A DNA stretch of 64,000 nt from an uncultured Pseudodesulfovibrio sp. GTDB lineage: Bacteria; Desulfobacterota; Desulfovibrionia; Desulfovibrionales; Desulfovibrionaceae. Under the pieces are notes generated by a model. It made no database searches. It saw only the letters and a program-made list of their open reading frames with translations, and had not been told where the DNA came from. Positions within the stretch are counted from its first letter, which is position 1. Each line of letters starts with the position of its first letter. A program made the position numbers and the translations under genes. The stretch covers positions 1,339,501 through 1,403,500 of the forward strand of contig NZ_OY776488.1 of NCBI RefSeq assembly GCF_963675635.1. The letters are read 5' to 3'. This document shows positions 3,732 to 56,500 of this stretch, piece by piece.

Positions 3732-4700
3732 TCAGACATGATTTCTCAGCATGAGTTCTGCGGGATATGGGTGCAGGTAAAACTGCTTTTCCAAATACTC
3801 TTTCCCATATTTTCTGACATAATGATTCATCATGGTAATCGGCACAATAAGAGGAACGAGTTCTCTCTGATACTGACCGATGAGTTCCAGCAACTCGATC
3901 TTCTCAGATGATGAGAGGTCTTTCTTAAAATACCCCAAGGCATGAGAGAGAACATTCACATTTTTTTTCACTGTATGCTTATATGAAAGGGCCTTGAAAA
4001 GCATTTCGAAATAAAGCGCGAAGCCATCATCATTTTTTTCGGTCCCCGCTTGAGCGACCAGTTTTCCCATGGCGCGATAGATGACTTCATTATGCGCCAT
4101 TATCAACATTTTATGCCGTGTATGGAATTCGACAAGCTTCCCTGGCGTATACCCATCTGCCATTGTTTCACGCCACCGTTTGAGCGTAAAGACTCGTGAT
4201 ATGAAGTTTTCACGAAGTTTCGGGTCATGTAGCCTACCATCATCCTCAAAGGGCAAATGCGGAAAACGATCCATAACCATTCGAGCCCACATGCCGCTCC
4301 CCTCAAGACGAGGCATACCATTTTCGCCATAGACTTTAACACGAGTCATTCCACTGGACGGAGAGCCATATTTGAAAACATAGCCACAGAGCCCTTGTTG
4401 TTCGAGTTGCTTCAGACGCTCTGCTCCCCACTTCTGCATGCGATCTGTCCAGTCTTCACCAGACGTGCGACCAACAAGACGAGGAGCATCGATATCTCCC
4501 ACAAGCCGAACAGCTTCACGCGGAATGGGCATCCCTGTTTCCACCTCAGGACAAACAGGTACCCATTCTACATACCTTCCAAGAGTATCTCGCAAAAAAC
4601 GATCAAGCTTTTGAGAACCATCATATCTGACTTTGTATCCGAGAAGACACTTGGCAATTCCCAATTTAATTTTACTGTCGCCCTCATTCTCTTGCGTCAT
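3732..4700 (-). CDS. DUF523-DUF1722 fusion protein (YbgA-like)
   Basis: The protein has 322 residues. The start at 4700 was chosen because GGAAGG lies seven bases upstream; earlier in-frame starts are badly spaced. Residues 1-150 are DUF523, the family of the thiouracil desulfidase TudS, and the rest is DUF1722 as in E. coli YbgA. DUF523 proteins bind a [4Fe-4S] cluster through three cysteines. C18 (KCLLG) and C50 (VCPEV) are present, but the SPSCG motif reads SPSSG with S116, so the third ligand is missing unless C105 replaces it. The role of the fusion family is not established; 2-thiouracil or sulfur chemistry is one possibility. It is downstream of sodN on the same strand. Confidence 0.85.
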   Translation of the reverse strand: MTQENEGDSKIKLGIAKCLLGYKVRYDGSQKLDRFLRDTLGRYVEWVPVCPEVETGMPIPREAVRLVGDIDAPRLVGRTSGEDWTDRMQKWGAERLKQLEQQGLCGYVFKYGSPSSGMTRVKVYGENGMPRLEGSGMWARMVMDRFPHLPFEDDGRLHDPKLRENFISRVFTLKRWRETMADGYTPGKLVEFHTRHKMLIMAHNEVIYRAMGKLVAQAGTEKNDDGFALYFEMLFKALSYKHTVKKNVNVLSHALGYFKKDLSSSEKIELLELIGQYQRELVPLIVPITMMNHYVRKYGKEYLEKQFYLHPYPAELMLRNHV

Positions 4701-4752
4701 TATCATGCCTTCCAATCTTTCACTTGATTACAAAATTATTCATCGATTGTGA

Positions 4753-5205
4753 TTACTTCTCGGGATAATACTCAAGCAGTGCTTTCACACTTTCTTCCAG
4801 CGCATCGACCGTGACCATGGTTGCGTTTTGTTTGGCCTTCATGGCTGCCACGATAACCGCATGATGCTTTTTTAGCCGTTCCACATAGTCTTCCTGGTCG
4901 GATTTGACACGCTGGGTCAGGAAGTAGTCAGCAAGAGTGTTAATTATCTTCTGTGCATGGCTTTCCTTGGTCATCACCCAACGTGTAAACTGCTGTCGGG
5001 ATTGCAGGTCGTTTTTGTTAACCAGTTGGATCAACATATCCACAGCTTTATGAATGGTTGTCACATCTTCAAGCATGGCCACGACACGCGCATGATCGTC
5101 ATAGATACCGCATGGCACCTGACAATGGGTGTATGCTTGCCGAGGAAAAAGAATGACAGAAAGACTCAGTACAATCAGCAACCCCGTCGCTTGCAAAATT
5201 TTCAT
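4753..5205 (-). CDS. sodN: Nickel superoxide dismutase with signal peptide
   Basis: The 150-residue protein starts at 5205, where AAGGAG precedes the ATG by seven bases. A hydrophobic signal sequence covers residues 1-26, and the mature part begins HCQVPCGIYDD, the nickel hook of NiSOD, in which His1, Cys2 and Cys6 bind the metal. The remaining helical domain has the normal family length of about 120 residues. The enzyme dismutes superoxide to oxygen and peroxide. Cleavage right before the histidine would expose the ligand and place the enzyme in the periplasm. No sodX-type maturation protease gene is adjacent. The -1 residue is Thr and the -3 residue Ala, a less common but acceptable signal peptidase site. 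It may be cotranscribed with the DUF523 gene, 52 bases away. Confidence 0.92.
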   Translation of the reverse strand: MKILQATGLLIVLSLSVILFPRQAYTHCQVPCGIYDDHARVVAMLEDVTTIHKAVDMLIQLVNKNDLQSRQQFTRWVMTKESHAQKIINTLADYFLTQRVKSDQEDYVERLKKHHAVIVAAMKAKQNATMVTVDALEESVKALLEYYPEK

Positions 5206-5455
5206 AGTAAACACTCCTTGAGCTAAGTTACTGCACCCAATTACTAGTTCATACGGCTTTACAACAAATGCGTCCAGTTTCACGGCCATCTTTTCATCCA
5301 CTTTGCCACACTCCAGCAGCAATGGCCCATATTAACGTATGCGCCGACTGGCACAAACCGCCCAACAATGGTATCGTAACGTGGGTTTTCTCACCTTCCC
5401 GTTTCATCCACGTACATACCCATGAACAATTTCAAACCTTTAGAAGGAGGAATTT

Positions 5456-5950
5456 ATGCGTGCATCAAAAACACGAGAGCAAGTACTGTTTACTGCATTA
5501 CTTGCGACTGCCATGGTCCTCTCAGCTTCTTTTGTCTGGGCATATGGTGGAGGAGGAGGAACGGGCGGCTTCGAACGAAATTCCAGCACAGGTTGCGGAG
5601 TGACCTTCGGAGGTATGGGTTCATACGCTCCATACTCAAACGGCATTACAAACCACGCTTCATATGAGGCCCAATTAGAAGCGGATGTTAAGGAAGAGCG
5701 TGAAGATTCTTGGAGTAGAAGCGATCAAGATTATTACGACCAAAGAGACGAAGGCAGAGCAATCTCCGCAATCGCATGGGATGAGACACTCGACACACCT
5801 CAAGATGTACGACACCTTGCATTTGTTCTGGAAAACATGATGGCGAATGGAGCCCTTTCCCCTCGCCAGGCATATACCGTCCTGGCAATTTACCAAGCAG
5901 GGAAGGAACGTCAGAGACAACAGGCCAGCCGACCAAACCGCAGGTATTAA
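5456..5950 (+). CDS. Exported protein of unknown function
   Basis: The 164-residue product begins after a strong ribosome-binding site (AGAAGGAGG). Residues 1-29 form a typical signal peptide ending in WA, followed by a glycine run (YGGGGGTGG), an acidic low-complexity middle section and a helical C-terminal half with many Gln and Arg residues. I recognise no family. The C-terminal part (residues 110-155) resembles a short helical interaction domain. The lipoprotein gene follows after 13 bases, so the two probably form an operon and act together in the envelope. The strand is divergent from sodN. Confidence 0.75.
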   Translation: MRASKTREQVLFTALLATAMVLSASFVWAYGGGGGTGGFERNSSTGCGVTFGGMGSYAPYSNGITNHASYEAQLEADVKEEREDSWSRSDQDYYDQRDEGRAISAIAWDETLDTPQDVRHLAFVLENMMANGALSPRQAYTVLAIYQAGKERQRQQASRPNRRY

Positions 5951-5963
5951 TAGGGGAACCGCA

Positions 5964-6995
5964 ATGAAAATAAAAACAGGGCTTCTCTTCATTACGCTTT
6001 TGATGCTTCTTGGTATCAGCTCAGGATGTGTTTCCAGCGGCTCATCAACACAGGCACCAGAAACACCGGTTTATCAGCCTCAAATCACGGGTGAAAAAGT
6101 TCTCTATCCAGACGAACAAACCGCAGTGACAACACTGGCACTCGCCAAGAAAGGTATACTTCCCCAAGATGGAGCGATTACCATGGCTCCTAATGCCACG
6201 GTGGCACTAGCCCAGCCAGCACCAGGATTCTCCGTTACCCAGGAGGGCGTCAGCGGCATCCGCCAGCTTCCGGACGGTAACCTCGCCGTCGAAGTATTGT
6301 GTGAATATCAAGACACATTAGGCCGAAAAGCGTCCATGTTGGATGTGGCAACATACACACTTCGCCAACCAACCGGTCAGGAATGCAAGACAGTATCTGA
6401 AAACATGGTCGCCGAGTACACGACCACCATGAAGAACTGCACCCCGGAAGTGCAGCAGCAAACCATGAAATCAATCAAGGATTTCCAAACGTCCGCTGGA
6501 CTCAAGTCAGATGGTATTCTCGGCCAGCAAACAGCTATGGCTATGGCGCAAGGTATGGAATTCCAGGAATTCACTAGTTTGGTATCAGCTCCGATATACA
6601 CAACAAATCCACGATTCGAGATTTATTTCATTGACGAAGTCGTAGCGAAAAATGCTCCAGACACCTATCTTAAGGGATTCGATAGTCTGGACGCTGTCAG
6701 GGTTAAGGCAATCCCGTCCAGCCAGTTCGCAGCAAGAGCAAAAAATGGTGGGAAATATCTCGCTTTGATCTATTTCATGGACCAACTTCCGAAGGACACA
6801 CCGATTCAGATCGGATTATCGCAATTCAGCACCCGAAAGGACACCGACAGAAAAGCGACCATGCAACCCGTGTACTCTACCGGCCGTGATTGGCCCGTCA
6901 TCGTGGCACCATTCAGCCTTGCAAATACCAATTCAAAACTCTACGCCCATGTCATGGTGAGTGGAGAAATTGCAGGAACGACACAATTAAAATAG
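5964..6995 (+). CDS. Lipoprotein with peptidoglycan-binding domain
   Basis: The start at 5964 follows AGGGG and gives a clean lipoprotein signal with lipobox ISSGC. The product is 343 residues. A short segment around residues 165-190 (IKDFQTSAGLKSDGILGQ) matches the helical PG_binding_1 pattern, in which a DG.LG turn follows the first helix. The C-terminal 150 residues are beta-rich and unassigned. It is therefore likely an outer- or inner-membrane lipoprotein that touches the cell wall. It sits 13 bases after the exported protein gene and is followed by a strong terminator, so the two genes form one unit. Confidence 0.8.
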   Translation: MKIKTGLLFITLLMLLGISSGCVSSGSSTQAPETPVYQPQITGEKVLYPDEQTAVTTLALAKKGILPQDGAITMAPNATVALAQPAPGFSVTQEGVSGIRQLPDGNLAVEVLCEYQDTLGRKASMLDVATYTLRQPTGQECKTVSENMVAEYTTTMKNCTPEVQQQTMKSIKDFQTSAGLKSDGILGQQTAMAMAQGMEFQEFTSLVSAPIYTTNPRFEIYFIDEVVAKNAPDTYLKGFDSLDAVRVKAIPSSQFAARAKNGGKYLALIYFMDQLPKDTPIQIGLSQFSTRKDTDRKATMQPVYSTGRDWPVIVAPFSLANTNSKLYAHVMVSGEIAGTTQLK

Positions 6996-7099: not shown

Positions 7100-8755
7100 T
7101 CACATCTCCACAGGTAACAACCCTGCCCGCTGAAGCCGTTCTCTTTTAGCAGCGATATCCTCCCGAATATATGAAAACTGCGTATTGAGTATGGACTCCA
7201 AGTGTTTGTCATGTCGATCTTCCAATAGCTGTCGATGATTACAACTCTGACGTTCAGCCTCTTCTGACTGCGCTCGAAGGTGATTTGAAAGCCGTAAATG
7301 CCTGATATCGACATCACCAAGATACGCGGCAGGTTTGCCATCCTGAAGCATTCGCAAATCCAGGTCCAAATCGTCAAACTGGCTGGGCGAAAAAAGGAGG
7401 TCAAACCCCTTTCTCTGTCGCAATTCTTCAAGTCTGAAAAGATGACAGCAGCCCGTCACCGAAGACGCGTACCGCCGGTAATTGGCCTGTAACGGAATCA
7501 GACATTCTATCGAAGGCTCATGAAGTACGACACGCCCCCCTTGTTTGGTGGCATCCTCACGACACAAGACAAAGCCATCTGCATGTTGCGTAATGCTGGG
7601 TGAAACAGCATCCCGCACATGGCAACCCCAGACACCTGCATCAGGAAATTCTTCTGTTCCAGCCGCAAAACCACGCAGCCAGTCGTGTGGAACAATGACA
7701 TCATCATCCAGAAATACGATCCATTCGGCCTTATCTTTCCAAGCTGCATCTATCAGCCAGTTGCGCGCTGCCGGAGCACCCACATTTACGGGAAGATCGA
7801 CGACGTCCAATATTCCATCGAAACGAGCTTGAGCAGCCTTAACAACATCCAGACTCCCGTCTTCACTTCCATTCACAAGCACCTTTATGGAAATATCTCC
7901 CACCTGTTCACTCAAATCGGAAGCCAGAACGCTTTCCAAGGTTCGTGCGAGTTCATCTGCTTTATTATATGAATAGATACTCACCACACACTTCCCTTCC
8001 AGGCGCACATCCCTATTGGCAGGAAAGGCCAGGCTGTCCATCAACAAAAGCGCTGATGTGTGAAGTGGAAACTCCCTCAACACTTCTTGAAGCAACGCCA
8101 AAGCCTTGTCTTTTTCCCCCGTACCAGCATAGGCCGTGGCGAGATTCAGCCCAACAATCGAAATTCCGAATCGTTCCAATAAGGATTCATATACCCTGAC
8201 CGCAGCTTTGCACTTTCCGTGAGCCAAAAGGACTTCTGCCAGCAACAACTCTGCAACCTCAGGTTCAACGGGTGCGACAATCCGTTGAATAAATCCTTCC
8301 AGCCAATCCCACTTTGAGAGCAGTCCTTGATAAAGCATAGCCTGCCGCGCCACAGGCAACACCATCTCTCCTCGGGCCGAGTGCATGAAATTTTCATCAA
8401 GTTCGGCGTACCGTCCCTGTAAGAAGTACTCTGAAGCTTCAACGCTGCCGTCACCATGACCAGACCTGGAAATGCGCTTGGCAACTGCCAGTGAATATGG
8501 CGTTAAAAGTTGCCTGACGAGTGGAATTCGGTCATAAAGCTTCACAACTTCGCCAGCTAACGGAGAATTGAGAGGGAATTCCGCCCATGCCATGCAAAAA
8601 AGCCTGGCTCCAAGTTCAATCAACGTAGAAGCATCAGAAGCGCCATTGGCCAGAGCAAAGGCTTTCTGCGCGGCAGCGAGCAGGTGATTGTGGCCACGTG
8701 TCCCAAAAAGCAGGTAATCATTCAAAACGTACTCTCTCATAATATCATTACGCAT
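7100..8755 (-). CDS. Family 2 glycosyltransferase with N-terminal helical repeats
   Basis: The protein has about 551 residues. The first 250 are alpha-helical with TPR-like spacing. From about residue 260 a GT-A fold begins (VSIYSYNKADELARTLES), with the metal-binding FLDDDV motif near residue 350. GT2 enzymes transfer a sugar from a nucleotide donor to a protein, lipid or glycan. There is no signal peptide or membrane segment, so it is cytoplasmic. The start is uncertain: neither the ATG at 8755 nor the one five codons later has a clear ribosome-binding site. It stands alone, converging on the exported-protein operon and divergent from sdaA, so context does not name the acceptor. Confidence 0.85.
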   Translation of the reverse strand: MRNDIMREYVLNDYLLFGTRGHNHLLAAAQKAFALANGASDASTLIELGARLFCMAWAEFPLNSPLAGEVVKLYDRIPLVRQLLTPYSLAVAKRISRSGHGDGSVEASEYFLQGRYAELDENFMHSARGEMVLPVARQAMLYQGLLSKWDWLEGFIQRIVAPVEPEVAELLLAEVLLAHGKCKAAVRVYESLLERFGISIVGLNLATAYAGTGEKDKALALLQEVLREFPLHTSALLLMDSLAFPANRDVRLEGKCVVSIYSYNKADELARTLESVLASDLSEQVGDISIKVLVNGSEDGSLDVVKAAQARFDGILDVVDLPVNVGAPAARNWLIDAAWKDKAEWIVFLDDDVIVPHDWLRGFAAGTEEFPDAGVWGCHVRDAVSPSITQHADGFVLCREDATKQGGRVVLHEPSIECLIPLQANYRRYASSVTGCCHLFRLEELRQRKGFDLLFSPSQFDDLDLDLRMLQDGKPAAYLGDVDIRHLRLSNHLRAQSEEAERQSCNHRQLLEDRHDKHLESILNTQFSYIREDIAAKRERLQRAGLLPVEM

Positions 8756-8881
8756 GTGTCAAAAAAAATTCTTGCGAATTGACAAATACAATATCCATTC
8801 CAACGAAAAAGACTTCTCCTCTTTTCCGTCTTATCGTATTCTTCCCATCGTCAAAACCTGAACAATAAAATTGGAAAAAAT

Positions 8882-10243
8882 ATGCCACCAGTCAGAACTT
8901 CCATATTTGAACTTTTGAAAATCGGCCCCGGCCCTTCCAGTTCCCATACTATCGGTCCCATGACGGCTGGGTACGATTTCATGGAGCTGGTCCGCAAGCT
9001 TCCCCGAAAAGACCGACTGCGTGCGGACAGACTGACCATCCGGCTGTTCGGTTCCCTGTCGGCTACCGGCGAAGGCCATGGCACAAGGCGCGCAGTCATG
9101 TCCGGCCTGCTTGGTTTTCTGCCCGACACATGCCATCCAAATGTTTTGGAAGAATTCGACGACAAGGACCAGCAATTTGAATTGGACCTCGACGGCAAGG
9201 CTCTTGCCTACTGCGCTGGTGACATTGTTTTTGATGCCGTCCAGCACGACTACCCACACTCCAACACCATGCTTTTTGCGCTCAACGCCGGCACTGAGAC
9301 ACTGCTTGAGCGCACGTACTATTCCATTGGTGGAGGATTCCTGGACTGGGAAGGGAAAGAAGAGGAAAAACGCGGTGAACCGGCCTACCCATACAAAACT
9401 ATGGCCCAACTCAAAGAGCATCTCCGCACACACTCCATGCGACTCCACGAACTCATCCTGGCCAATGAAAAAGCCATAACAGGCATGAGTGAAAAAGAAA
9501 TCTTTGAAAATCTTGACCACATCGTCGAGGTCATGGAACGATCCGTAGAACTCGGGATACAGAGCAAAGGCATACTCCCCGGTCCTATCGGACTGCAACG
9601 AAAGGCCGCCGTCATGTACGAAAAGGCCAAAGCTGAACACTTTCAGGGACCGGGTTTCGTCAAGGCTCTCAACGCATATGCCATGGCGGCATCCGAAGAG
9701 AACGCGTCGGGCCATTGCGTTGTCACGGCCCCCACATGCGGCGCGGCGGGTGTCATTCCTTCCATCATCTTCATGCTCAAACGCCATATGGGAGCTTTGC
9801 AGGACGAAATCCGCCAGGGACTTCTCGCCGCCATAGCCATCGGTTTCCTCTGCAAACACAACGCATCCATCTCCGGCGCGGAAGTCGGTTGCCAGGGCGA
9901 AGTCGGCGTCGCCTCAGCCATGGCCGCCGCCCTCCTTGCCTATGCACGGGGCTATCGATTCCAGGTCACCGAAAATGCGGCTGAAATAGCCATGGAACAC
10001 CACCTTGGCCTGACTTGTGATCCTGTCGGCGGCTATGTGCAAATCCCCTGCATCGAGCGTAACGCCATGGGTGCAGTCAAGGCTTACAACGCCTACCTCA
10101 TCGCCTCCACGCTGGACGAATCGTACCAACGGGTCGATCTCGACAAGGCAATCCAGGCAATGGCTCAGACAGGCCGGGACATGTCACGTAAATACAAGGA
10201 AACGTCATTAGCAGGTTTGGCGCAAAGCGTTACAGAATGCTAA
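8882..10243 (+). CDS. sdaA: L-serine ammonia-lyase, single-chain iron-sulfur type
   Basis: The 453-residue protein has the N-terminal beta domain (PGPSSSHTIGP) and the C-terminal alpha domain fused in one chain, as in E. coli SdaA. Conserved cysteines for the [4Fe-4S] cluster occur in PTCGAAG, SGAEVGCQGE and LTCDPVGGYVQIPC. It deaminates L-serine to pyruvate and ammonia in the cytoplasm, feeding carbon into pyruvate metabolism. The amino-acid transporter genes follow in the same direction, but a good promoter lies between them, so they need not be cotranscribed. No irregularity is visible. Confidence 0.95.
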   Translation: MPPVRTSIFELLKIGPGPSSSHTIGPMTAGYDFMELVRKLPRKDRLRADRLTIRLFGSLSATGEGHGTRRAVMSGLLGFLPDTCHPNVLEEFDDKDQQFELDLDGKALAYCAGDIVFDAVQHDYPHSNTMLFALNAGTETLLERTYYSIGGGFLDWEGKEEEKRGEPAYPYKTMAQLKEHLRTHSMRLHELILANEKAITGMSEKEIFENLDHIVEVMERSVELGIQSKGILPGPIGLQRKAAVMYEKAKAEHFQGPGFVKALNAYAMAASEENASGHCVVTAPTCGAAGVIPSIIFMLKRHMGALQDEIRQGLLAAIAIGFLCKHNASISGAEVGCQGEVGVASAMAAALLAYARGYRFQVTENAAEIAMEHHLGLTCDPVGGYVQIPCIERNAMGAVKAYNAYLIASTLDESYQRVDLDKAIQAMAQTGRDMSRKYKETSLAGLAQSVTEC

Positions 10244-10318
10244 GACTCACATTATTGTAAATATACACGTTTCAGACAAAGAATCTTCCGAGAACATAGC
10301 ACCAAAACCGAAAATCGT

Positions 10319-10347
10319 TTGCCTAATGACCTGCCTTTTGCTATAAA
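10319..10347 (+). promoter_or_regulatory. Sigma-70-type promoter for the amino-acid transporter
   Basis: TTGCCT at 10319-10324 and TATAAA at 10342-10347 are separated by 17 bases, upstream of the ABC ATPase gene. The match is by eye. Confidence 0.55.
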
Positions 10348-10387
10348 ACGCCTCGGCTTTTAGCCTAATCCCTTATTGGAGAGACAT

Positions 10388-11116
10388 GTGATTTCTTTCA
10401 AAGGCGTCAACAAATGGTATGGGGACTTTCAGGTTCTCAAAAATATCAACCTTAACATTGCCAAGGGCGAAGTCGTCGTCGTTTGCGGCCCTTCCGGGTC
10501 CGGCAAATCCACCATGATTCGGTGTATTAATCGTCTGGAACCGATCCAGGAAGGCGATATAATGGTCGATGGCATGAATGTGTCCGACCCGCGAACGAAC
10601 ATGACCCTGCTCCGGGCAGAAGTCGGGTTCGTTTTCCAGCAGTTCAATCTCTATCCGCATATGACGGTCATGGAGAACATCACGCTGGCACCCACCATGG
10701 TTCGCGGCATGAGCCGCGGCGAAGCCACTACCATCGGCATGGACCTTCTCAAGAAGGTCGATATCCCGGACAAGGCCGGAGCATACCCGTCCCAGCTTTC
10801 CGGAGGACAGCAACAGCGCGTCGCCATTGCACGCGGACTGGCCATGCAGCCCAAGATCATGCTGTTCGATGAACCGACATCCGCGCTCGATCCTGAAATG
10901 ATCAACGAAGTCCTTGATGTCATGAAATCCCTGGCACGCGAGGGCATGACCATGATCTGCGTTACCCACGAGATGGGCTTTGCCCGCGAAGTGGCGGACA
11001 GGGTCATCTTTATGGATGAAGGAAACCTCGTGGAAGAAAATACGCCTGAGGAATTTTTCAATAATCCGCAGAGTGATCGTACCAAAGATTTCCTGAGCAA
11101 GATTCTCAGCCACTAG
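10388..11116 (+). CDS. Polar amino-acid ABC transporter ATPase
   Basis: The 242-residue ATPase has Walker [10 protein letters not shown], the signature LSGGQQQR and Walker [12 protein letters not shown], as in GlnQ/HisP. I place the start at the GTG at 10388, which has GGAG six bases upstream and gives [12 protein letters not shown], the usual family N-terminus; an earlier in-frame TTG at 10376 lacks a ribosome-binding site. It powers amino-acid uptake at the inner membrane with the binding protein and fused permease downstream. The substrate cannot be read from the sequence. Confidence 0.93.
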
Positions 11117-48104: not shown

Positions 48105-48503
48105 TCAGTCGTTGCTCGCCTGGTCCTGCATGAACGCACGTACCCTGCGCTGAATACGAATCACCCGTTTGAGCAATTCACCCAGCCCGAACAGGGTGAC
48201 TGACACGACAGTGCTGAGCAGCAGCACACCGAAACCAGCCAGAGCAAACATCCAATTCCTTGCCGAGTCATCGGTGTTGGTGTTCCAAAGTAGAACGAAA
48301 CAGGCGACCAACCCCACAACCCACATCAGGTGTCCTGTGGCGGTAAGCACCCGCTCCATCGGCAGTCTGGAAAACGGATTCTGGACCTTGTAGCCGGTCA
48401 GGTCATCACCTCCGCAAACTGGACATTTCTCCAAATCCGCTGAAAAGGTTTCAAGACAGCGTTCGCATTGAACCATTTTCCTGTAATCACTGAGTTCAGG
48501 CAT
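48105..48503 (-). CDS. Zinc-ribbon membrane protein of unknown function
   Basis: The 132-residue protein begins with a zinc-ribbon (CERC at about residues 13-16 and CPVC at 27-30), then two hydrophobic segments (about 55-75 and 85-110) and a basic tail. Topology suggests the ribbon is cytoplasmic. The family is unknown to me. It lies 18 bases after the TRAP permease gene and before the terminator, so it is part of that operon; a role in transporter assembly or stability is only a guess. Confidence 0.75.
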   Translation of the reverse strand: MPELSDYRKMVQCERCLETFSADLEKCPVCGGDDLTGYKVQNPFSRLPMERVLTATGHLMWVVGLVACFVLLWNTNTDDSARNWMFALAGFGVLLLSTVVSVTLFGLGELLKRVIRIQRRVRAFMQDQASND

Positions 48504-48521: not shown

Positions 48522-50603
48522 TTACGCCAGTGCGGCGTCGGCCTTCAGTTGTCTGGGACGCTGAATCAACCACATGGCACCCCACAGGAGTAGACCAACC
48601 GGATAGACCCAGTAACGCATGTCATACGGCAGGCCGACCAGACGGGAGATAAGATCCGGTCTGAACATGACCATGGTAATGGTCAGCAGAATCGGTATCT
48701 CGTAGAATCGGTTCTTGGCAATGAACCACCCCTGTGTGGCCGAGGCAAATGCGAAGTTGCCTATGCATGCCATGGCAAAGATCAGCAACCCCTGAGGCCA
48801 ACTGTCGATATTATGCAGAATCAGGTCGTGGTTGAATATGAACATGAACGGCAAAATGGCCGTACGAATATCATACATAAACCCCTGAAGTCCCGTTTGT
48901 ATGGGTGGCGCCTCGGCAATAGCCGCAGCGGCATATGCCGCCAGGCCGACCGGCGGAGTATCGTCCGCCAAAATGCCGAAGTAGAAACAGAACAGATGCG
49001 CTGCCATAAGCGGCACGAGAAAGCCCTGCAAACCACCGATACTGACAATAGCCGGCGCAGTGAGCGAAGCCATGACAATATAGGTAGCCGTGGTGGGCAG
49101 CCCCATACCGATAAGCAGACTCGCCATCGCCGTAATGACAAGCATCAGGAAGATATTTCCGCCGGACAGAACGTCGATAATCTGCGTAATAAGCCCACCC
49201 AGTCCAAGCGCGACAACCCCCACGATGATACCGGCAGCAGCTGTTGCCATGGCGACACCGGCCATGTTTCGCGCACCCTCAGCCATGGAAAGGAATATAT
49301 CCTTCACACTCTGCTTGATGGCAGGCAAAAGCGGCTGGTTGTCAAGCTTAGCCCTGATCGGCTTTTGCAGCAGCATGATAACCATGAGCACAAGAATGGC
49401 GCGGAAAGCGGCCAGTTCAGGGGAATGGCGCAAGGCAATCAATTCATACAAAAGCATACCGAGCGGTAGCAGGAAATGCAGGCCGGACATGAGTGTCGGC
49501 ATGAATTTCGGCAGTTCAGCACGCGGTATACCCGACAAGCCGAGCTTTGATGCCTCGATATGCGAGATGTAAAGAAGCGCAGCATAGGAAGCAAAAGCCG
49601 GAACCGCAGCCGCCTTGACGACTTCAATATACGGCACGTTGACATACTCGGCGATAATGAAGGCTGCAGCCCCCATAATGGGCGGAGCGAGCTGGCCGTC
49701 AGTGGACGCAGCCACTTCGATGGCCCCTGCCTTTGTCGCCGGATACCCGACCTTTTTCATTAATGGAATGGTAAAGGTTCCGGTAGTTACGATATTGGCG
49801 ATGGAAGAGCCGGATACCATACCAGTCAGCCCGGAACCGAGAATTGCCGCCTTGGCAGGCCCACCCTTGAATCCTCCAAGGATGCACAAAGCCAACTGGA
49901 TGAAGAAATGTCCAGCGCCTGCTTTCTCAAGCATGGTCCCGAACAGCACGAACAAAAAGACGATGGTCGCAGACACATCCAGCGGGATACCGTATATTCC
50001 TTCTGAACTCATAGCCATCTGTCCAATGAAACGATTCAGGGAAACGCCTTTGAACGCAATAACGTCCGGCATGTACGGTCCGAGAAACGCATACGCACAG
50101 AACAGAAGAGCAATAACGGGCAATGCCGGCCCGATAACGCGCCTAGTTGCTTCAAGCAGCAGGCCGACCAGCATCAGTCCAAACAGGATATCCCGAGTGG
50201 TCGGCGCTCCGTAGCGCATGGCTATTCCATCATAATCAATGAAGATATACAGGGCCGCGAATGCTGCCAGTATACCAAAGATATAATCCAGAATAGTTAC
50301 GCGATTCATGATCATGAGAAATCTGAGATCAGGCCGCCACTTGGGGTTCCCCTTCATCATGGGTACGTTCAGAAATACGAGCAGAATGGCGAATGCCAAA
50401 TGGAAGGCCCTGATATACAGGGTATCCAGAATCAGCCAACTGGCTATGGAGAGTTGGAACAGCGACCACATAATAGCAATGGCAATGGTCAACGTCCTTG
50501 TGACACCGACGCTATCACCTTGCAAACCGTGTTCGGCCTCGGCCAATTCCCGGGCGTACTCCACCCCTTTTACATTGTTGTCGTCTACAATCTTATCTAC
50601 CAT
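48522..50603 (-). CDS. TRAP transporter fused permease (4TM/12TM)
   Basis: The protein has about 693 residues, starting at the ATG at 50603 (MVDKIVDD) after AGGGAG. A longer frame begins at a TTG inside the upstream hairpin and is unlikely. It contains the small (DctQ-like) and large (DctM-like) membrane domains in one chain, with about 16 or more membrane segments and the ALGLGGLITQIIDVLSGGN and IGMGLPTTATYIVMA motifs. It imports an organic anion or similar substrate using an ion gradient, with the TAXI binding protein encoded upstream. Confidence 0.92.
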   Translation of the reverse strand: MVDKIVDDNNVKGVEYARELAEAEHGLQGDSVGVTRTLTIAIAIMWSLFQLSIASWLILDTLYIRAFHLAFAILLVFLNVPMMKGNPKWRPDLRFLMIMNRVTILDYIFGILAAFAALYIFIDYDGIAMRYGAPTTRDILFGLMLVGLLLEATRRVIGPALPVIALLFCAYAFLGPYMPDVIAFKGVSLNRFIGQMAMSSEGIYGIPLDVSATIVFLFVLFGTMLEKAGAGHFFIQLALCILGGFKGGPAKAAILGSGLTGMVSGSSIANIVTTGTFTIPLMKKVGYPATKAGAIEVAASTDGQLAPPIMGAAAFIIAEYVNVPYIEVVKAAAVPAFASYAALLYISHIEASKLGLSGIPRAELPKFMPTLMSGLHFLLPLGMLLYELIALRHSPELAAFRAILVLMVIMLLQKPIRAKLDNQPLLPAIKQSVKDIFLSMAEGARNMAGVAMATAAAGIIVGVVALGLGGLITQIIDVLSGGNIFLMLVITAMASLLIGMGLPTTATYIVMASLTAPAIVSIGGLQGFLVPLMAAHLFCFYFGILADDTPPVGLAAYAAAAIAEAPPIQTGLQGFMYDIRTAILPFMFIFNHDLILHNIDSWPQGLLIFAMACIGNFAFASATQGWFIAKNRFYEIPILLTITMVMFRPDLISRLVGLPYDMRYWVYPVGLLLWGAMWLIQRPRQLKADAALA

Positions 50604-50699
50604 TTCTCCCTCGGTCGCTGTGGTGGCGTAAATCAAAGAGCCGCCTGCAAGCTCCCCTGCAAACGGCGGCAGCACGGCCGAATCCGGCCTGCGCAAAAT

Positions 50700-50727
50700 G
50701 TAACCGGGCAGCAAACCGCCCGGTTAC
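50700..50727 (-). terminator. Stable hairpin between TAXI and TRAP permease genes
   Basis: A perfect 10-bp stem (50700-50709 with 50718-50727) and 8-base loop lie 22 bases after the binding-protein stop, with only a short T stretch beyond. It likely gives differential expression or protects the upstream mRNA. Confidence 0.7.
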
Positions 50728-51718: not shown

Positions 51719-52026
51719 TCTCAGTTCCTCCAGAACAAAAAAACAGTTAACCCAATGGAGCCGACCCCTCTCAAAGCCCGACCCTTAATGAAAACCCACA
51801 AGGACTTTCACGAAAACACAGCAACAGCCGATTTACCACTTACGTCAAACACGACGTGTGAGATTTCTAGCCGACATACCGATTTACCAAAAAACGTTTT
51901 TTTTCGCAACGGGTTATTCCAAAAGGAGAGACAGGCCGATCGATTTCTGATAATCGCAGATAAGCTTTTATAATGAGTATCGGTAAAATGAACCTGTAAA
52001 CCCTTTTTGGGAAGCATTAATCAGAC
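51719..52026. promoter_or_regulatory. Shared upstream region of TAXI-TRAP and ATP-grasp operons
   Basis: This gap of about 308 bases holds no gene that I can support. On the + strand a perfect -10 box TATAAT lies at 51969-51974, with only a weak -35 (TTCTGA at 51945-51950, 18 bases away); it would give a leader of about 45 bases. The ribosome-binding site of the + gene is weak. AAAACG followed by eight T residues near 51893-51905 is a notable run, but I cannot assign it. Confidence 0.45.
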
Positions 52027-53427
52027 ATGGATGAACCGCTCTTTACGAATATTGACCTAGACCCCGCCTTCACATATTTCCTCTTTATTGGCGAATTGAA
52101 GGCCTACGGACTCAACCATTTCGTCGCCAAAGCCCTTGAAAGGGAATTCGATACACCGTTCAAAGCCATTTCCATCGCTCCCGATCTTATCGACACCACC
52201 GCTTTCACAAATCTGACGGTCTTCAACTCAACCGCAAGGAGTGAGCGAGAAGCCGCAGGCCGAAAAGTTGCCTACCGCACCCCCATGTCCGTTTTTTCAG
52301 GTGAAGTGTCAAAATCGACATATATCAGGTCGCTGCTGGACACGCTGCTCAAACAACAGGACCACATCTTTGTCTGGATGTTTGAAAGCAGACCGGAACT
52401 GGACCTCGGTCACCCCGACAAAATCACCCTGCTCGGCCCCAGAGCCGACCTTATAGAGCACCTGAACGACAAGACCTGGCAATATGAGACATTCTCCAAA
52501 GTGGCGCCCGTTGTGGATTTCATGATCTGCTGCGGGACCGACGCTCTGGAGCAAGGCCTCAAGGAATTGGGAGAACGCTCCCCGCACGGCATGTTCGTCT
52601 CGGCCAGTCACAGCGCAGGCGGCGCACAAAGCATGGTATGCCGGTGCGCCAAAGACGCACTTGATCGTTTTACCTGCCCTGAGACACATTACCTTATTAG
52701 TGGATACACGCCGCACACTCATGACCCGACAGTACTCGCCGTTGTCGGCAATGAAAACGAAGTCTATGTGGCCGGAGTCGCTGATATGAACATAGTTGAC
52801 GGCAACAAATTTCGCGGTTCTACATTCCCGTCCATACTCCCTGCCAACGTACAGGCAGACCTGCGTGATTACACTGCCGCTGTTGGACGCGAACTCGGCA
52901 AGCTCGGATTCCGGGGTATCTATGGCTGCGACTACATCGTGACCGAAAACGAGGACATTTTTTTCATTGAGGTCAACGCACGCAAACAGGGAACGACCAT
53001 GGAATTTTGTAGTGCGCTTGAACAGCTATTGCCGGACAAGGCCCCCAGCCTGTTCGATATGGAGTGCTACGCGGTCCTGCACGACGTACTTCCAGCCGAC
53101 TGCCACGAGCCAGACTTCGATGCCATCATCAACGGTGATCTTCACTGGGGCACTTTCAACCACAAGGTCGAAACAGATGTTGTCACGACCGATGTGATCA
53201 AGCAAAGTCTGCCTGAACGGACCCTTTTCGAACAGACGGTTGCTGACGGTCTGCACGGACACATCATTCTTGAACATGCTGGCGATGACGTTCTGGTCAA
53301 AGCCGGGACTTTTCTGGGGCGTGTGGTCGCTGTGGCAGCCACTCGCAAGGACATGCTTCTTGAACTGAAAAACGGAACCAATCGGTTGGCGGAATCCATC
53401 GTCAACCGGGAAACAAACAGGTATTGA
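52027..53427 (+). CDS. ATP-grasp ligase of unknown specificity
   Basis: The 466-residue protein has ATP-grasp features: the nucleotide-binding NDK at residues 147-149, a glycine-rich loop (SASHSAGGAQS, 192-202), and the metal-binding set D302 (GCDYIV) and EVNAR at 315-319. No signal peptide or membrane segment. ATP-grasp enzymes join a carboxylate to an amine or thiol through an acyl phosphate. The best guess is an amide or peptide bond between small molecules. It is the first gene of a three-gene operon, one base before the radical SAM gene. The C-terminal 100 residues are probably a beta-rich domain of unknown role. The substrate is unknown. Confidence 0.85.
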   Translation: MDEPLFTNIDLDPAFTYFLFIGELKAYGLNHFVAKALEREFDTPFKAISIAPDLIDTTAFTNLTVFNSTARSEREAAGRKVAYRTPMSVFSGEVSKSTYIRSLLDTLLKQQDHIFVWMFESRPELDLGHPDKITLLGPRADLIEHLNDKTWQYETFSKVAPVVDFMICCGTDALEQGLKELGERSPHGMFVSASHSAGGAQSMVCRCAKDALDRFTCPETHYLISGYTPHTHDPTVLAVVGNENEVYVAGVADMNIVDGNKFRGSTFPSILPANVQADLRDYTAAVGRELGKLGFRGIYGCDYIVTENEDIFFIEVNARKQGTTMEFCSALEQLLPDKAPSLFDMECYAVLHDVLPADCHEPDFDAIINGDLHWGTFNHKVETDVVTTDVIKQSLPERTLFEQTVADGLHGHIILEHAGDDVLVKAGTFLGRVVAVAATRKDMLLELKNGTNRLAESIVNRETNRY

Positions 53428-53428
53428 T

Positions 53429-54982
53429 ATGTCTTTTGAACTGGATGGTTTTACAACGGACTTGCTTGAACAGATCTCCGGCAACGGTACTGCAACCGAA
53501 GCCGACTCCTCCAACATGCAGCAGCTTTATGCCGACGCCAGGGCGGGTGACGGGACAGCGCCCATCGTGGCCCTGTTTCACGCTCTCAAAAACGCCAAAG
53601 ACACAGGTGGACCGGGGTATGAAGCATATGGGCTCACCCATGAAAATCTTATCGAACTCTGTGCCAAGCATGTCGAGATCGATGAACACTCCGTGACCAT
53701 CGGGGGTCGCGTTGGCCGCGCACTGGAAATCATCACCGATGCCGGATTGCGTGTGCAGGATTACCTGGCCCGCAAGGATGTCGAAGCCCCGAGCGGAATC
53801 CAGCTCTGGGATAAGATTCTTGAAAATCAGGCTCGCATCAAATCCGTCCTTGGCATGACTGACGATGACTGGAATTCCTTTTCCGGTCAGCTCGGCAACT
53901 GCATCGACGATGCAGAAACCCTGAAAAAATGTCTCGACCTGCCCGATGACTGCATTCAGGACGTTGCCCGAATCACCAAGAAATATCGCATGCGCATGAC
54001 ACCTTACTACGCCAGCCTGATTCAGCCGGTTCCCAATGATCCGGTCATTCTTCAGGCCGTCCCCACAGCTGAAATGGTCGATACCGTGGGCGAGGAAATT
54101 CCACCCGTGGCGTCGGACCATTCGCCGGTACGCCTTGTAGATCAATTCTACCCACGTGTAGTAGCCCTCAAATCCACCAATATATGCGCCATGTACTGCA
54201 CGCACTGTCTGCGTATCGCCCACATCGGCGGCTCTGACCGCACATTCTCCAAGGCGGCCTATCAGGAAGCACTGGACTACATCGCTTCAAAACCAGCCAT
54301 CCGCGACGTGCTGATTACTGGTGGTGACGCTTTCATGTTATCCAACAGTTCCCTGCGCTGGCTGCTCGGTAAACTGGATGAAATTGACCATATAAAAATG
54401 AAACGCCTCGGCACCCGTGTTCCGGTAACCACACCGCAACGCATTGATGCCGAACTTCTCGATATTCTGGAAGAAAGCAACGACAAGAACCCCCTGCGCG
54501 TTGTTACGCAGATCAACACGGCACAGGAAATCACCCCGGTTTCCCGACAGGCGTTCAAGGATATTTCAAAACGTGTTTTCGCCGTGCTCAATCAGGCAGT
54601 CCTACTCCGCGGCATCAACGACTCAAAAGTCAAGATGTGGCACTTATGCGAAACAATTCAGGAATCCTATGTGCGCCCTTACTATATCTTTAACTGTTCC
54701 TACCGAAACCCCCAGTACTATCATATGCGGGTTCCCATCGAGAAAGGCCGGGATATTGTGGAAGGTATGTACGGCAACATTTCCGGCGATGCCATTCCGC
54801 GTTATATAGCCGCCGCCGGTGGCAAAATCCCGCTTCACCGCGACAATGTTCAGGGACGGGAAGATGACGGAACAGTCATTCTTCGGAAACCCTGGGGCGG
54901 CGAAGTCCGTTACCCGGATGCCAACCCGGATGGCTATGCAACTGACGACAATTTCGCTTTCAATCAATACGGCAAGAAATAA
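53429..54982 (+). CDS. Radical SAM protein of the lysine 2,3-aminomutase family
   Basis: The 517-residue protein has the radical SAM cysteines C253, C257 and C260 (CAMYCTHC), GGD at 298-300 and the PLP lysine K466 in AAAGGKIPLH, as in KamA. These indicate a PLP- and SAM-dependent 2,3-aminomutase that moves an alpha-amino group to the beta carbon. Comparison with clostridial lysine 2,3-aminomutase, from memory, places S424 and Y459 where that enzyme has D293 and D330, the side chains that hold the lysine epsilon-ammonium. The substrate is therefore probably not lysine. An N-terminal extension of about 180 residues is longer than in KamA. It is coupled on both sides to the ligase and peptidase genes. 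Confidence 0.88.
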   Translation: MSFELDGFTTDLLEQISGNGTATEADSSNMQQLYADARAGDGTAPIVALFHALKNAKDTGGPGYEAYGLTHENLIELCAKHVEIDEHSVTIGGRVGRALEIITDAGLRVQDYLARKDVEAPSGIQLWDKILENQARIKSVLGMTDDDWNSFSGQLGNCIDDAETLKKCLDLPDDCIQDVARITKKYRMRMTPYYASLIQPVPNDPVILQAVPTAEMVDTVGEEIPPVASDHSPVRLVDQFYPRVVALKSTNICAMYCTHCLRIAHIGGSDRTFSKAAYQEALDYIASKPAIRDVLITGGDAFMLSNSSLRWLLGKLDEIDHIKMKRLGTRVPVTTPQRIDAELLDILEESNDKNPLRVVTQINTAQEITPVSRQAFKDISKRVFAVLNQAVLLRGINDSKVKMWHLCETIQESYVRPYYIFNCSYRNPQYYHMRVPIEKGRDIVEGMYGNISGDAIPRYIAAAGGKIPLHRDNVQGREDDGTVILRKPWGGEVRYPDANPDGYATDDNFAFNQYGKK

Positions 54983-56136
54983 TGATCAACACTATTCGTA
55001 CGTATATCGAGGACCATGAGCAGGAAATGATGGACCTGCTGGAAAAGATCGTTTGCATCAACAGTTATACGGCGAACAAAGCTGGCACGGATGCTGTGTC
55101 CGCAGTCATTGAAAGCGTCATGACCGATATGGGCTTCATTGTACGCCGTATAAAACAGGATATGGTCGGGGACAACCTGATAGCTGAGAATGCCCACAGA
55201 CCTGAAAGCCGGCGCCTCCTGCTCTGTGGGCACATGGACACGGTCTTTCCACCAGAAGACGGATTTAATTGCTTCCGTAAGGAAGGAAACACTCTCATCG
55301 GTCCGGGCGTGATTGACATGAAAGGCGGTCTGGTGGTCGGCATATACGCGCTCAAGGCGCTTGATGCCGCAGATCTTCTGACAGACATGCCGGTTGCCTT
55401 TATCTTCAACTCAGATGAAGAAATAGGGTCACCGCATTCACAGGATCTCATCATCGAAGAAGCAAAAGAATCGGCAATAGCCTTTGTCTTTGAATGTTCC
55501 AGCCCAGGTGGTAAAATAGTTACGGCACGAAAAGGGAAAATATCGTTTACTCTGGAAGTTCAAGGGCAAGCCGGCCATTCTGGCAATCTCACTGGCCCCA
55601 AACCCAGTGCTATTCTCGAAATGGCACACCAGACGATTGCCCTTGAAGCTCTCAACGATGCCGCCAAGGGTGTGTCCGTCAATGTCGGGCTGATCGAAGG
55701 CGGTGTCGGACCAAATACCATAGCGCCTTCAGCCAAGGCCAAAATCGAATGCCGGTATTGGAATGAAATGGAAGGCGTGATTCTTCGCGAGGCCATTGAG
55801 AACTTAGCAGCTTCACCCACCATTACCGGCACACGTTGCCAATTGGAAGTGTTGCCTGGACGGCCGACCATGGAGAACAATCCAGCTATTGCTTCACTTT
55901 TCGACATCGTAGCTTCTGCAGGTGCCGACCTTGATATCCCGGTATTGGAAAGTGCGCGAGGCGGCGTTTCGGATGCCAATTTCATCGCTAACACAGGAAC
56001 TCCTGTGATCGACGGTCTTGGCCCTACCGGCGGCAAGGATCACTCGCACAACGAATACATGCTCACGGAATCCCTGGCTGAACGAACCATTCTAGCCGCT
56101 GTCGCCATGCGACGGGCATTCGAAAGCCTGTCGTAG
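54982..56136 (+). CDS. M20-family metallopeptidase
   Basis: The 384-residue protein has the zinc-binding set of the ArgE/DapE/CPG2 group: GHMDT (H84, D86), D112 in DMKGG, DEE at 145-147 with the general base, E171 and a late histidine in GGKDHSHNEY. A dimerisation domain is inserted (about 180-290). M20 enzymes hydrolyse amide bonds in small acyl amino acids and dipeptides. Its start overlaps the aminomutase-like gene stop as TAATG, so the two are coupled. It probably releases or recycles the product or intermediate made by the ligase. There is no signal peptide. Confidence 0.92.
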   Translation: MINTIRTYIEDHEQEMMDLLEKIVCINSYTANKAGTDAVSAVIESVMTDMGFIVRRIKQDMVGDNLIAENAHRPESRRLLLCGHMDTVFPPEDGFNCFRKEGNTLIGPGVIDMKGGLVVGIYALKALDAADLLTDMPVAFIFNSDEEIGSPHSQDLIIEEAKESAIAFVFECSSPGGKIVTARKGKISFTLEVQGQAGHSGNLTGPKPSAILEMAHQTIALEALNDAAKGVSVNVGLIEGGVGPNTIAPSAKAKIECRYWNEMEGVILREAIENLAASPTITGTRCQLEVLPGRPTMENNPAIASLFDIVASAGADLDIPVLESARGGVSDANFIANTGTPVIDGLGPTGGKDHSHNEYMLTESLAERTILAAVAMRRAFESLS

Positions 56137-56169
56137 CAGCGTCCTCTAGGCAGTCCTACCACTGGGAGC

Positions 56170-56221
56170 CTTAGGAAAGTCCAAAGTCCCTTTGCTTAAA
56201 GGGACTTTGGACTCTCCTAAG
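56170..56221. repeat. Long inverted repeat after the peptidase gene
   Basis: The arms are about 23 bases (56170-56192 with 56199-56221), with one mismatch and a 6-base loop. There is no T tract after it. It could be a strong RNA hairpin ending the operon, or a small inverted-repeat element. Confidence 0.8.
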
Positions 56222-56500
56222 CTCTATTACAACTCGTTCACTCAAGACCAGGCGGGCTCATTCATCATGCTCCCCCAAGAGTGGCATCGTTGTATTTCTT
56301 CTTTCAAGCACCCACCCCCGAATCATCAACAGACAAGTTCTGACTGAACCAACCTCTGTACGACTTTCGTGAATGGCGCAAATCCCAAGCATGGATAATC
56401 TACGATTTCTGCAAATGGTACCTTCGAATAATCAATACATATTCAACCGCGACAAGAGCCCAAATACTCCAATGCTGGAGCCGAATTTCGTTGCTCACAA
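56222..56500. other. Non-coding stretch before qrcD
   Basis: About 280 bases hold no gene that I can support. A + strand frame of some 70 codons, open from about 56345 through the terminator at 56502, includes WRKSQAWIIYDFCKWYL. It lacks a start and a ribosome-binding site; it could be chance or the remnant of a lost gene. Confidence 0.3.

Follow-up and report, generated by a model that had tools for sequence, protein, structure and literature searches.

Glutamate 2,3-aminomutase, reportedly described by Ruzicka and Frey in 2007, and the AblA-AblB pair are among the described systems closest to an operon present in an uncultured Pseudodesulfovibrio sp. This operon lies in a stretch of 64,000 nucleotides (bases 1339501-1403500 of one 3.52 Mb contig), called the window below, and encodes an ATP-grasp ligase, a radical S-adenosylmethionine (SAM) and pyridoxal phosphate (PLP) aminomutase of the KamA type, and an M20 metallopeptidase (Table 1). 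In our judgement the chances are about even that it constitutes a biosynthetic pathway whose product, an amide or dipeptide, contains a beta-amino dicarboxylic acid, with beta-glutamate (3-aminoglutarate) as the likeliest candidate.

With glutamate 2,3-aminomutase (model TIGR04368) the window enzyme shares the catalytic residues and the branch of the KamA tree (99/99), and a near-canonical copy occurs in six such operons. The window type differs by Ser and Ala (or Thr) plus an Arg in place of Lys and Asn and by an added N-terminal helical region, and it works beside a ligase. In AblA-AblB, a KamA aminomutase is likewise followed by capping of the beta-amino acid, but the capping enzyme is a GNAT acetyltransferase instead of an ATP-grasp ligase, and the window operon is not of the lysine type. 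N-epsilon-acetyl-beta-lysine is described as a salt protectant (PMC1224877), and the lysine pathway is treated in PMC11337218. The host genome contains an ablA-ablB pair at about 207.5-209.7 kb (positions 4521-6684 of locus L137; 777 and 301 bits, above both cut-offs), and is predicted by these scores to possess a second beta-amino-acid pathway.

In PylB-PylC of pyrrolysine biosynthesis, PylB is no PLP/KamA enzyme, and an M20 or TRAP partner is not known. The NAGGN system is likewise an osmolyte pathway that forms amide bonds and has a peptidase partner, but its enzymes are other than those of the window operon. Its amidotransferase (TIGR03104) was above cut-off in 8 of 98 relatives, belonging to two genera and all with an aminomutase of the window type (T1 below), and no match to it was obtained at E 1e-100 in the window genome. 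Since NAGGN and T1 coexist in these relatives, the former is neither exclusive of the latter nor independent evidence. BesA, a propargylglycine-glutamate ligase, and BacD are ATP-grasp amino acid ligases with the same fold as the window ligase, but they belong to other clusters, have other substrates and are only 14% and 12% identical to it in the fold alignment. An earlier note on this DNA, made from the letters alone, had known of no described pathway with the three partners. Among titles and abstract openings of open-licence PMC articles none describing them together was found either, closed-access papers and preprints being outside this scope.

Recurrence of the gene set

The three genes are intact, co-directional open reading frames, with a gap of 1 base between the first two and an overlap of 1 base between the second and third. 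No signal-peptide-like stretch was found near the N-terminus of the three proteins; the best 15-residue hydropathy values were 0.97, 1.10 and 1.35 in gene order, compared to 2.15 for an exported neighbour used as control. Coordinates and hydropathy thus agree with the tightly spaced operon without export signals that the earlier note had described.

Relatives were collected using either the aminomutase or the ligase as anchor. A homologue of the aminomutase was detected at E 0.001 in 69 of 98 genomes and with at least 60% identity in 28, the window genome counted; within the window's genus, 5 of 36 genomes harbour such a close homologue. In the 27 relatives besides the window genome, the gene immediately before the aminomutase is the ligase in 25 cases, and that immediately after it is M20 in all. 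The two loci without ligase are L047, which begins inside the aminomutase, and L035, where tblastn revealed no ligase in the 2.1 kb present upstream. The ligase-anchored set comprised the best 80 of 110 confirmed ligase relatives, and adjacency was defined as an aminomutase start not more than 1 kb from the ligase end. A KamA-type radical SAM gene directly follows the ligase in 72 of these 80 loci, twice as an in-frame fusion (L119, L125). Sixty-six of the loci have T1, four have T2, the near-canonical glutamate-type aminomutase beside a homologous ligase (in L120 as a frame-broken copy), two have fused T2, four end at a contig edge and four lack an aminomutase. Among the 66 T1 loci, M20 is the next gene in 45; another 15 have room of 600 bases or more but no M20 there, and six end too soon. 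The median gap is -4 bases between ligase and aminomutase (70 loci) and 2 bases between aminomutase and M20 (50 loci), overlaps being overstated because the first start codon after the stop was used.

The three-gene order therefore recurs across families, far beyond chance, and the homologues do cluster (25/27 and 27/27; 72/80), contrary to the outcome that the earlier note had named as refuting its reading. Of the three partners it had grouped together, ligase and aminomutase hold as a pair, whereas the M20 gene is not universal. Among 395 genomes drawn evenly from the phylum, the ligase was detected in eight (E 1e-60) and an aminomutase match in seven (E 1e-90); five genomes had both genes, three, all of one genus, only the ligase, and two only the aminomutase. 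Ligase and aminomutase go together, yet they are rare across the phylum. Gene linkage, fusion, residue changes, phylogeny and transporter linkage are established by these and the following comparisons. The named contigs are mostly from metagenome-assembled genomes (MAGs) with phyla read from record titles, so that the phylum labels may include misbinning. One MAG contig with the title Pseudodesulfovibrio sp. (L048) bears the nearest named ligase relative, which is 87% identical. Searches for the ligase in PHROGs and plasmids gave no match.

Some loci show other arrangements. In five with Campylobacterota titles (L093, L094, L100, L116, L117), the gene after the aminomutase encodes not M20 but a protein of 165-183 aa, of which the L100 copy matched nothing in Pfam or NCBIfam. 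In six others (L037, L038, L042, L044, L054, L056; L054 and L056 are titled Desulfonatronovibrio), a second KamA-like gene is located just upstream and divergently transcribed. In L037 this gene product shows an R/M signature and falls on a separate branch, which was labelled EpmB-like with no certified member in it.

Residues and phylogeny of the aminomutase

The second protein belongs to the KamA family (TIGR00238, 242.9 bits; cut-off 199.2). Its CxxxCxxC motif consists of C253, C257 and C260, K466 is the PLP lysine and R262 the carboxylate-binding arginine, all kept with respect to the solved lysine enzyme 2a5h; their roles are presumably those of lysine 2,3-aminomutase. Asp293 and Asp330, which we take to be the side-chain clamp for lysine in that enzyme, read S424 and A462 in the window. 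Comparison of these two positions revealed Ser and Ala/Thr in 10 T1 rows, with Ser invariant in 20 aligned rows, Lys/Thr in six T2 rows, Lys/Asn in the aminomutase of L166, and Asp/Asp in 20 other KamA rows. Of the 28 genomes that have a T1 aminomutase, 20 are represented in the alignments; from the comparison of the two positions, L128 was left out as the same gene as L136, and L131, which stops inside, was not used. The two Asp/Asp rows that were scored, a copy in L031 and the host's own AblA, both pass the lysine cut-off. As a lysine 2,3-aminomutase the window enzyme was rejected, since both clamp residues are gone and its score is below cut-off (TIGR03820, 274.1 versus 525.4). The residues of lysine 2,3-aminomutase noticed earlier are therefore present as far as the catalytic radical SAM and PLP set is concerned, but those for lysine recognition are not.

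Lys and Asn, presumably the two side-chain positions of glutamate 2,3-aminomutase and seen in L166, are not present in the window enzyme either (Ser/Ala), which scores 323.8 on TIGR04368, where the cut-off is 650 and the certified L166 enzyme reaches 716.5 bits. The T1 loop is one residue longer and has an invariant arginine, R426, two residues past S424, which is also kept in the divergent L165. In a KamA tree of 46 rows, ten T1 and six T2 enzymes, L165 and L166 group at 99/99, that is, on a common branch with glutamate 2,3-aminomutase. Two long rows (div_L072, par_L151) had been omitted from the tree, since a long row had drawn others. T1 aminomutases also have a helical N-terminal extension, apparent in the alignment and in confidently modelled helices; only these well-scored helices were used, since the AlphaFold model as a whole is poor (mean predicted local distance difference test, pLDDT, 59.3). 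Taken at the level of sequence, the window aminomutase is a member of the glutamate-aminomutase branch that keeps the catalytic residues but not those of lysine recognition. The suggestion of a beta-amino acid in the earlier note fits this branch, while a lysine-type specificity does not.

Two aminomutases of the branch have other surroundings. The divergent window-type enzyme of L165 (1859-3460, 592 bits) has no ligase within its 4.9 kb contig. The certified glutamate 2,3-aminomutase of L166 (764-2561) adjoins an OsmC-like gene, and no ligase was found within 11 kb.

Six operons with homologous ligase and M20 genes carry a T2 aminomutase (L110, L119, L123, L124, L125, L136). Five of these enzymes score 571-614 bits on TIGR04368 and the sixth, one gene in L128 and L136, 632 bits. 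Like L166 they have Lys at the side-chain position. A seventh operon, L120, has a shortened, frame-broken aminomutase copy, which was not scored. L136 is the best glutamate-aminomutase match among 118 genomes of the phylum, none of which passes the cut-off; ligase, aminomutase and M20 are in order, and a TAXI gene is located about 4.4 kb away. Between T1 and T2 operons, 54 conserved ligase positions are shared and three are fixed differently. If the ligase sees the same partner in both, T1 and T2 aminomutases would make the same or a similar product. The T2 ligases form one clade. The aminomutase may have been swapped, or T1 and T2 may have diverged together with their ligases; both origins are compatible with the ligase tree because it has no outgroup.

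Ligase, peptidase and linked transporter

By sequence, the first protein shows a weak match to ATP-grasp_3 (21.0 bits, cut-off 23.2), and no Pfam or NCBIfam model matched it above cut-off. Its AlphaFold model (pLDDT 89.8) exhibits the full three-domain ATP-grasp fold, which together with an E-x-N-x-R site identifies it as an ATP-grasp enzyme. E315, N317, R319 and K149 are present in at least 93% of 69 T1 rows, among them two contig-edge ligases whose partner was not seen, and in all 13 other rows. The top structural matches were PurK, PurT and biotin carboxylase; BacD and BesA were among the Foldseek matches, and PylC was obtained with VIA-align. The shared fold does not fix the reaction, because the nearest folds include amide formers as well as carboxylases, and going by the model the ligase is probably amide-forming. 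On the equivalog models for BesA/LdmS it scores far below cut-off (NF042917, 22.5 versus 750; NF047900, 18.5 versus 475).

Ligase homologues also occur in other contexts. Another genus of the family has three genomes with such a ligase; in one of them, L162, the gene after the homologue (7977-9413, 471 bits) encodes a B12-binding radical SAM protein containing DUF4070 (9394-10980), and no KamA gene was found next to it. In a paralogue clade (L097, L107, L108, L114, L115), a RimK-like ATP-grasp gene precedes the ligase, the L097 copy having been scanned. According to record titles, three of these assemblies contain a ligase-aminomutase locus as well (L114/L058, L107/L053, L115/L063).

The third protein is an M20 peptidase (PF01546, 96.2 bits; cut-off 24.6). 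H84, D86, D112, E146, E147, E171 and H354, which we take to be the catalytic and metal residues of the family, are present in 20 of 20 M20 rows. Its nearest solved relative by sequence is carboxypeptidase G2, which releases C-terminal glutamate.

The neighbourhood goes beyond the three genes to which the earlier note had confined it. In the window, a TAXI-type TRAP binding protein (TIGR02122, 341.5 bits, cut-off 84.35) and its permease (TIGR02123, 636.2 bits, cut-off 320.65) are encoded next to the operon and divergently from it. Both genes accompany the operon, with either orientation, in 32 of the 43 loci that span 17 kb or more. Universal stress proteins are found near the operon in 24 and a GntR-FCD regulator in 12 of the 43. 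Neighbourhoods were counted in 92 loci, including the 43 long ones; six ligase-paralogue loci were left out, as were nine repeat loci (L048, L049, L052, L055, L067, L069, L086, L112, L118), which were kept among the 80.

For VcGluP of V. cholerae, a Kd of 0.065 uM for L-glutamate and 11 uM for glutamine has been reported, Y45 and Q93 being most important for binding (PMC11574862). The window protein, which in contrast to VcGluP stands by a biosynthetic operon, keeps the equivalents of Y45, Y46, S75, Q93, H123, E125 and Y200. Among 42 linked binding proteins, Y45, Q93, H123 and E125 are kept in 40 and Y46 in all; position 200 is Tyr in 32 and Phe in eight, position 75 Ser in 27 and Pro in 13. 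The window genome encodes only three TAXI proteins in 3.5 Mb, and the other two keep none and two of Y45, Y46, Q93, H123 and E125, with Phe and Tyr at position 45 and Tyr and a gap at position 93. Measured against these two controls, the residues are modest evidence for a glutamate-type ligand. M201 and D157 of VcGluP are replaced by Thr and Gln, respectively, in 37 of the 42 linked proteins each, so that what is bound may be a glutamate relative and not glutamate.

In the flanking regions, the number of sigma-70-like sites was not above that in shuffled sequences, and this includes the candidate listed in Table 1. Folding of 56137-56240 downstream of the M20 gene gave -45.3 kcal/mol (z -6.29). 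A 132-aa protein encoded next to the permease gene (48105-48503, - strand) shows, by eye, CxxC pairs and hydrophobic stretches, and had no Pfam match.

Table 1 Features of the operon and its surroundings in the window
Feature	Position	Strand	Basis
ATP-grasp ligase, probably amide-forming, 466 aa	52027..53427	+	AlphaFold fold; conserved E315, N317, R319, K149
KamA-type radical SAM/PLP aminomutase, 517 aa, T1 clade	53429..54982	+	Family profile, residues, tree
M20 metallopeptidase, 384 aa	54982..56136	+	Pfam profile; catalytic/metal residues
TAXI-type TRAP solute-binding protein with VcGluP-type glutamate-binding residues	50750..51718	-	TIGR02122; residues
Fused TRAP permease, TAXI partner	48522..50714	-	TIGR02123
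Candidate sigma-70-like promoter, about 52 bases before the ligase start	51947..51974	+	10/12 consensus match only
Strong hairpin just 3' of the M20 gene, candidate operon end, no T run	56165..56225	.	Folding energy

A possible beta-glutamate pathway and its alternatives

From the enzymes and their residues we infer substrates, product, direction and role of the pathway. By homology, the radical SAM/PLP enzyme would act on glutamate, or on a close derivative of it, by shifting the amino group from C2 to C3. The ATP-grasp enzyme, judging from its fold, would then activate a carboxylate as acyl phosphate and couple it with an amine; the resulting amide or dipeptide could be hydrolysed for recycling by the M20 enzyme. 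The TAXI-TRAP transporter would import glutamate or the beta-amino acid. The first choice for the role of the product is, plausibly, a compatible solute, because of the habitats of the carriers (as far as record titles and genus names suggest them), the use of beta-amino acids as solutes (PMC1224877, PMC9337991), and the part that glutamate plays as a key solute of Desulfovibrio vulgaris (PMC5686539). A comparison with the co-occurrence of ectoine gave no match in any control genome.

A number of observations weigh against a beta-glutamate pathway or against this role. The window aminomutase remains below the cut-off of the glutamate model and is without its Lys, and the T2 enzymes are below that cut-off too. 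The branch of T1 and L165 is very long, 2.1 changes per column, so that the substrate may have changed, and T1, L165 and T2 without L166 are joined at just 87/69. Each partner is also found without the other, the aminomutase in L165 and the certified L166, the ligase in three genomes of one genus and in the paralogue clade; M20 is not next to the aminomutase in 15 of the 66 window-type loci. The substrates of the ligase are not readable from its fold, and for the transporter there are Pro at position 75 in 13 of the 42 linked proteins and two control proteins only. The named carriers include genera known from non-saline sources, Desulfoprunum (wastewater) and Desulfobulbus Tol-SR (tailings). 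Trehalose and betaine are the solutes reported for Desulfovibrio halophilus, and labelling of methanogens showed that their beta-glutamate does not come from a glutamate aminomutase (both PMC1224877). Finally, eam genes have been linked to a sodium riboswitch (PMC9337991); a search with Rfam gave no match in the window and four loci and only RNase P in ten more, hence no riboswitch in 15 sources.

Parts of the evidence could be read differently. The Lys that holds the free side-chain carboxylate in glutamate aminomutases is Ser in the window type, and the aminomutase could thus act on glutamine or on a gamma-glutamyl product of the ligase, yielding beta-glutamine or a beta-glutamyl peptide. 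The ligase would then come first, as it does in gene order in the 25 and 72 linked loci; in L119 and L125 the two are fused. T2 enzymes, however, including the fused ones, keep the Lys, which implies a free carboxylate, their ligases have nearly the same conserved positions, and in T1 the charge could be supplied by R426; such a route is considered unlikely. Loss of any acidic side-chain ligand at the Asp positions would also suit a carnosine-like pathway, in which alanine is converted to beta-alanine, the ATP-grasp ligase adds an amino acid and M20 is the dipeptidase; carnosine synthase is an ATP-grasp and carnosinase an M20 enzyme. With a glutamate-type Lys in T2 operons, glutamate-type residues in the linked transporter and carboxypeptidase G2 as closest solved M20 relative, this appears very improbable. 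Hardly credible is a beta-lysine amide or peptide made by a variant of the N-epsilon-acetyl-beta-lysine pathway, to which membership in the KamA family and the ablA-ablB genes elsewhere in the host genome could point, since both Asp are absent in T1 rows and present in the L031 copy and the host AblA, and the window enzyme scores well below the lysine model.

The same chemistry could also lead to a scarce specialised metabolite, such as a cofactor piece, an antimetabolite, a signal or a nitrogen store, with no osmolyte involved. The patchy distribution (5 of 36 genomes of the genus; ligase in 8 of 395 across the phylum sample), the weak ligase match to BesA, a ligase of specialised metabolism, and the RimK-like ligase or B12 radical SAM enzyme next to other ligase homologues are in line with such a product. 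Those recurrent neighbours that were annotated, on the other hand, comprise the uptake transporter, the universal stress proteins and the GntR-FCD regulator, not tailoring or self-protection functions, although several clusters present in 4-13 loci are unannotated. A specialised metabolite is therefore regarded as rather unlikely.

In anoxic marine pore water, beta-glutamate is prominent among the free amino acids, and to our knowledge no bacterial source has been firmly assigned to it there. It is described as a solute of methanogens that has also been detected in a few bacteria (PMC1224877); in Nitrosopumilus maritimus, at 730 mM, it exceeded every other identified metabolite (PMC8269262). 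The full proposal is that a pathway without description in the literature searched, carried by contigs whose titles name several phyla, produces a beta-glutamate amide or dipeptide for use as a solute and recycles it, with the consequences for its bacterial source and transport, and in this complete form it is possible but rather doubtful. If true, beta-glutamate (beta-aminoglutaric acid) in marine sediments would have in this operon a bacterial source, and the linked TAXI-TRAP transporter would be the first beta-glutamate uptake system known to us. An aminomutase with a new specificity, fused or otherwise coupled to an amide ligase, would be added as well. The presence of the operon in sulfate reducers and Campylobacterota, together with a transporter of its own, would give the question of the beta-glutamate source testable genes.

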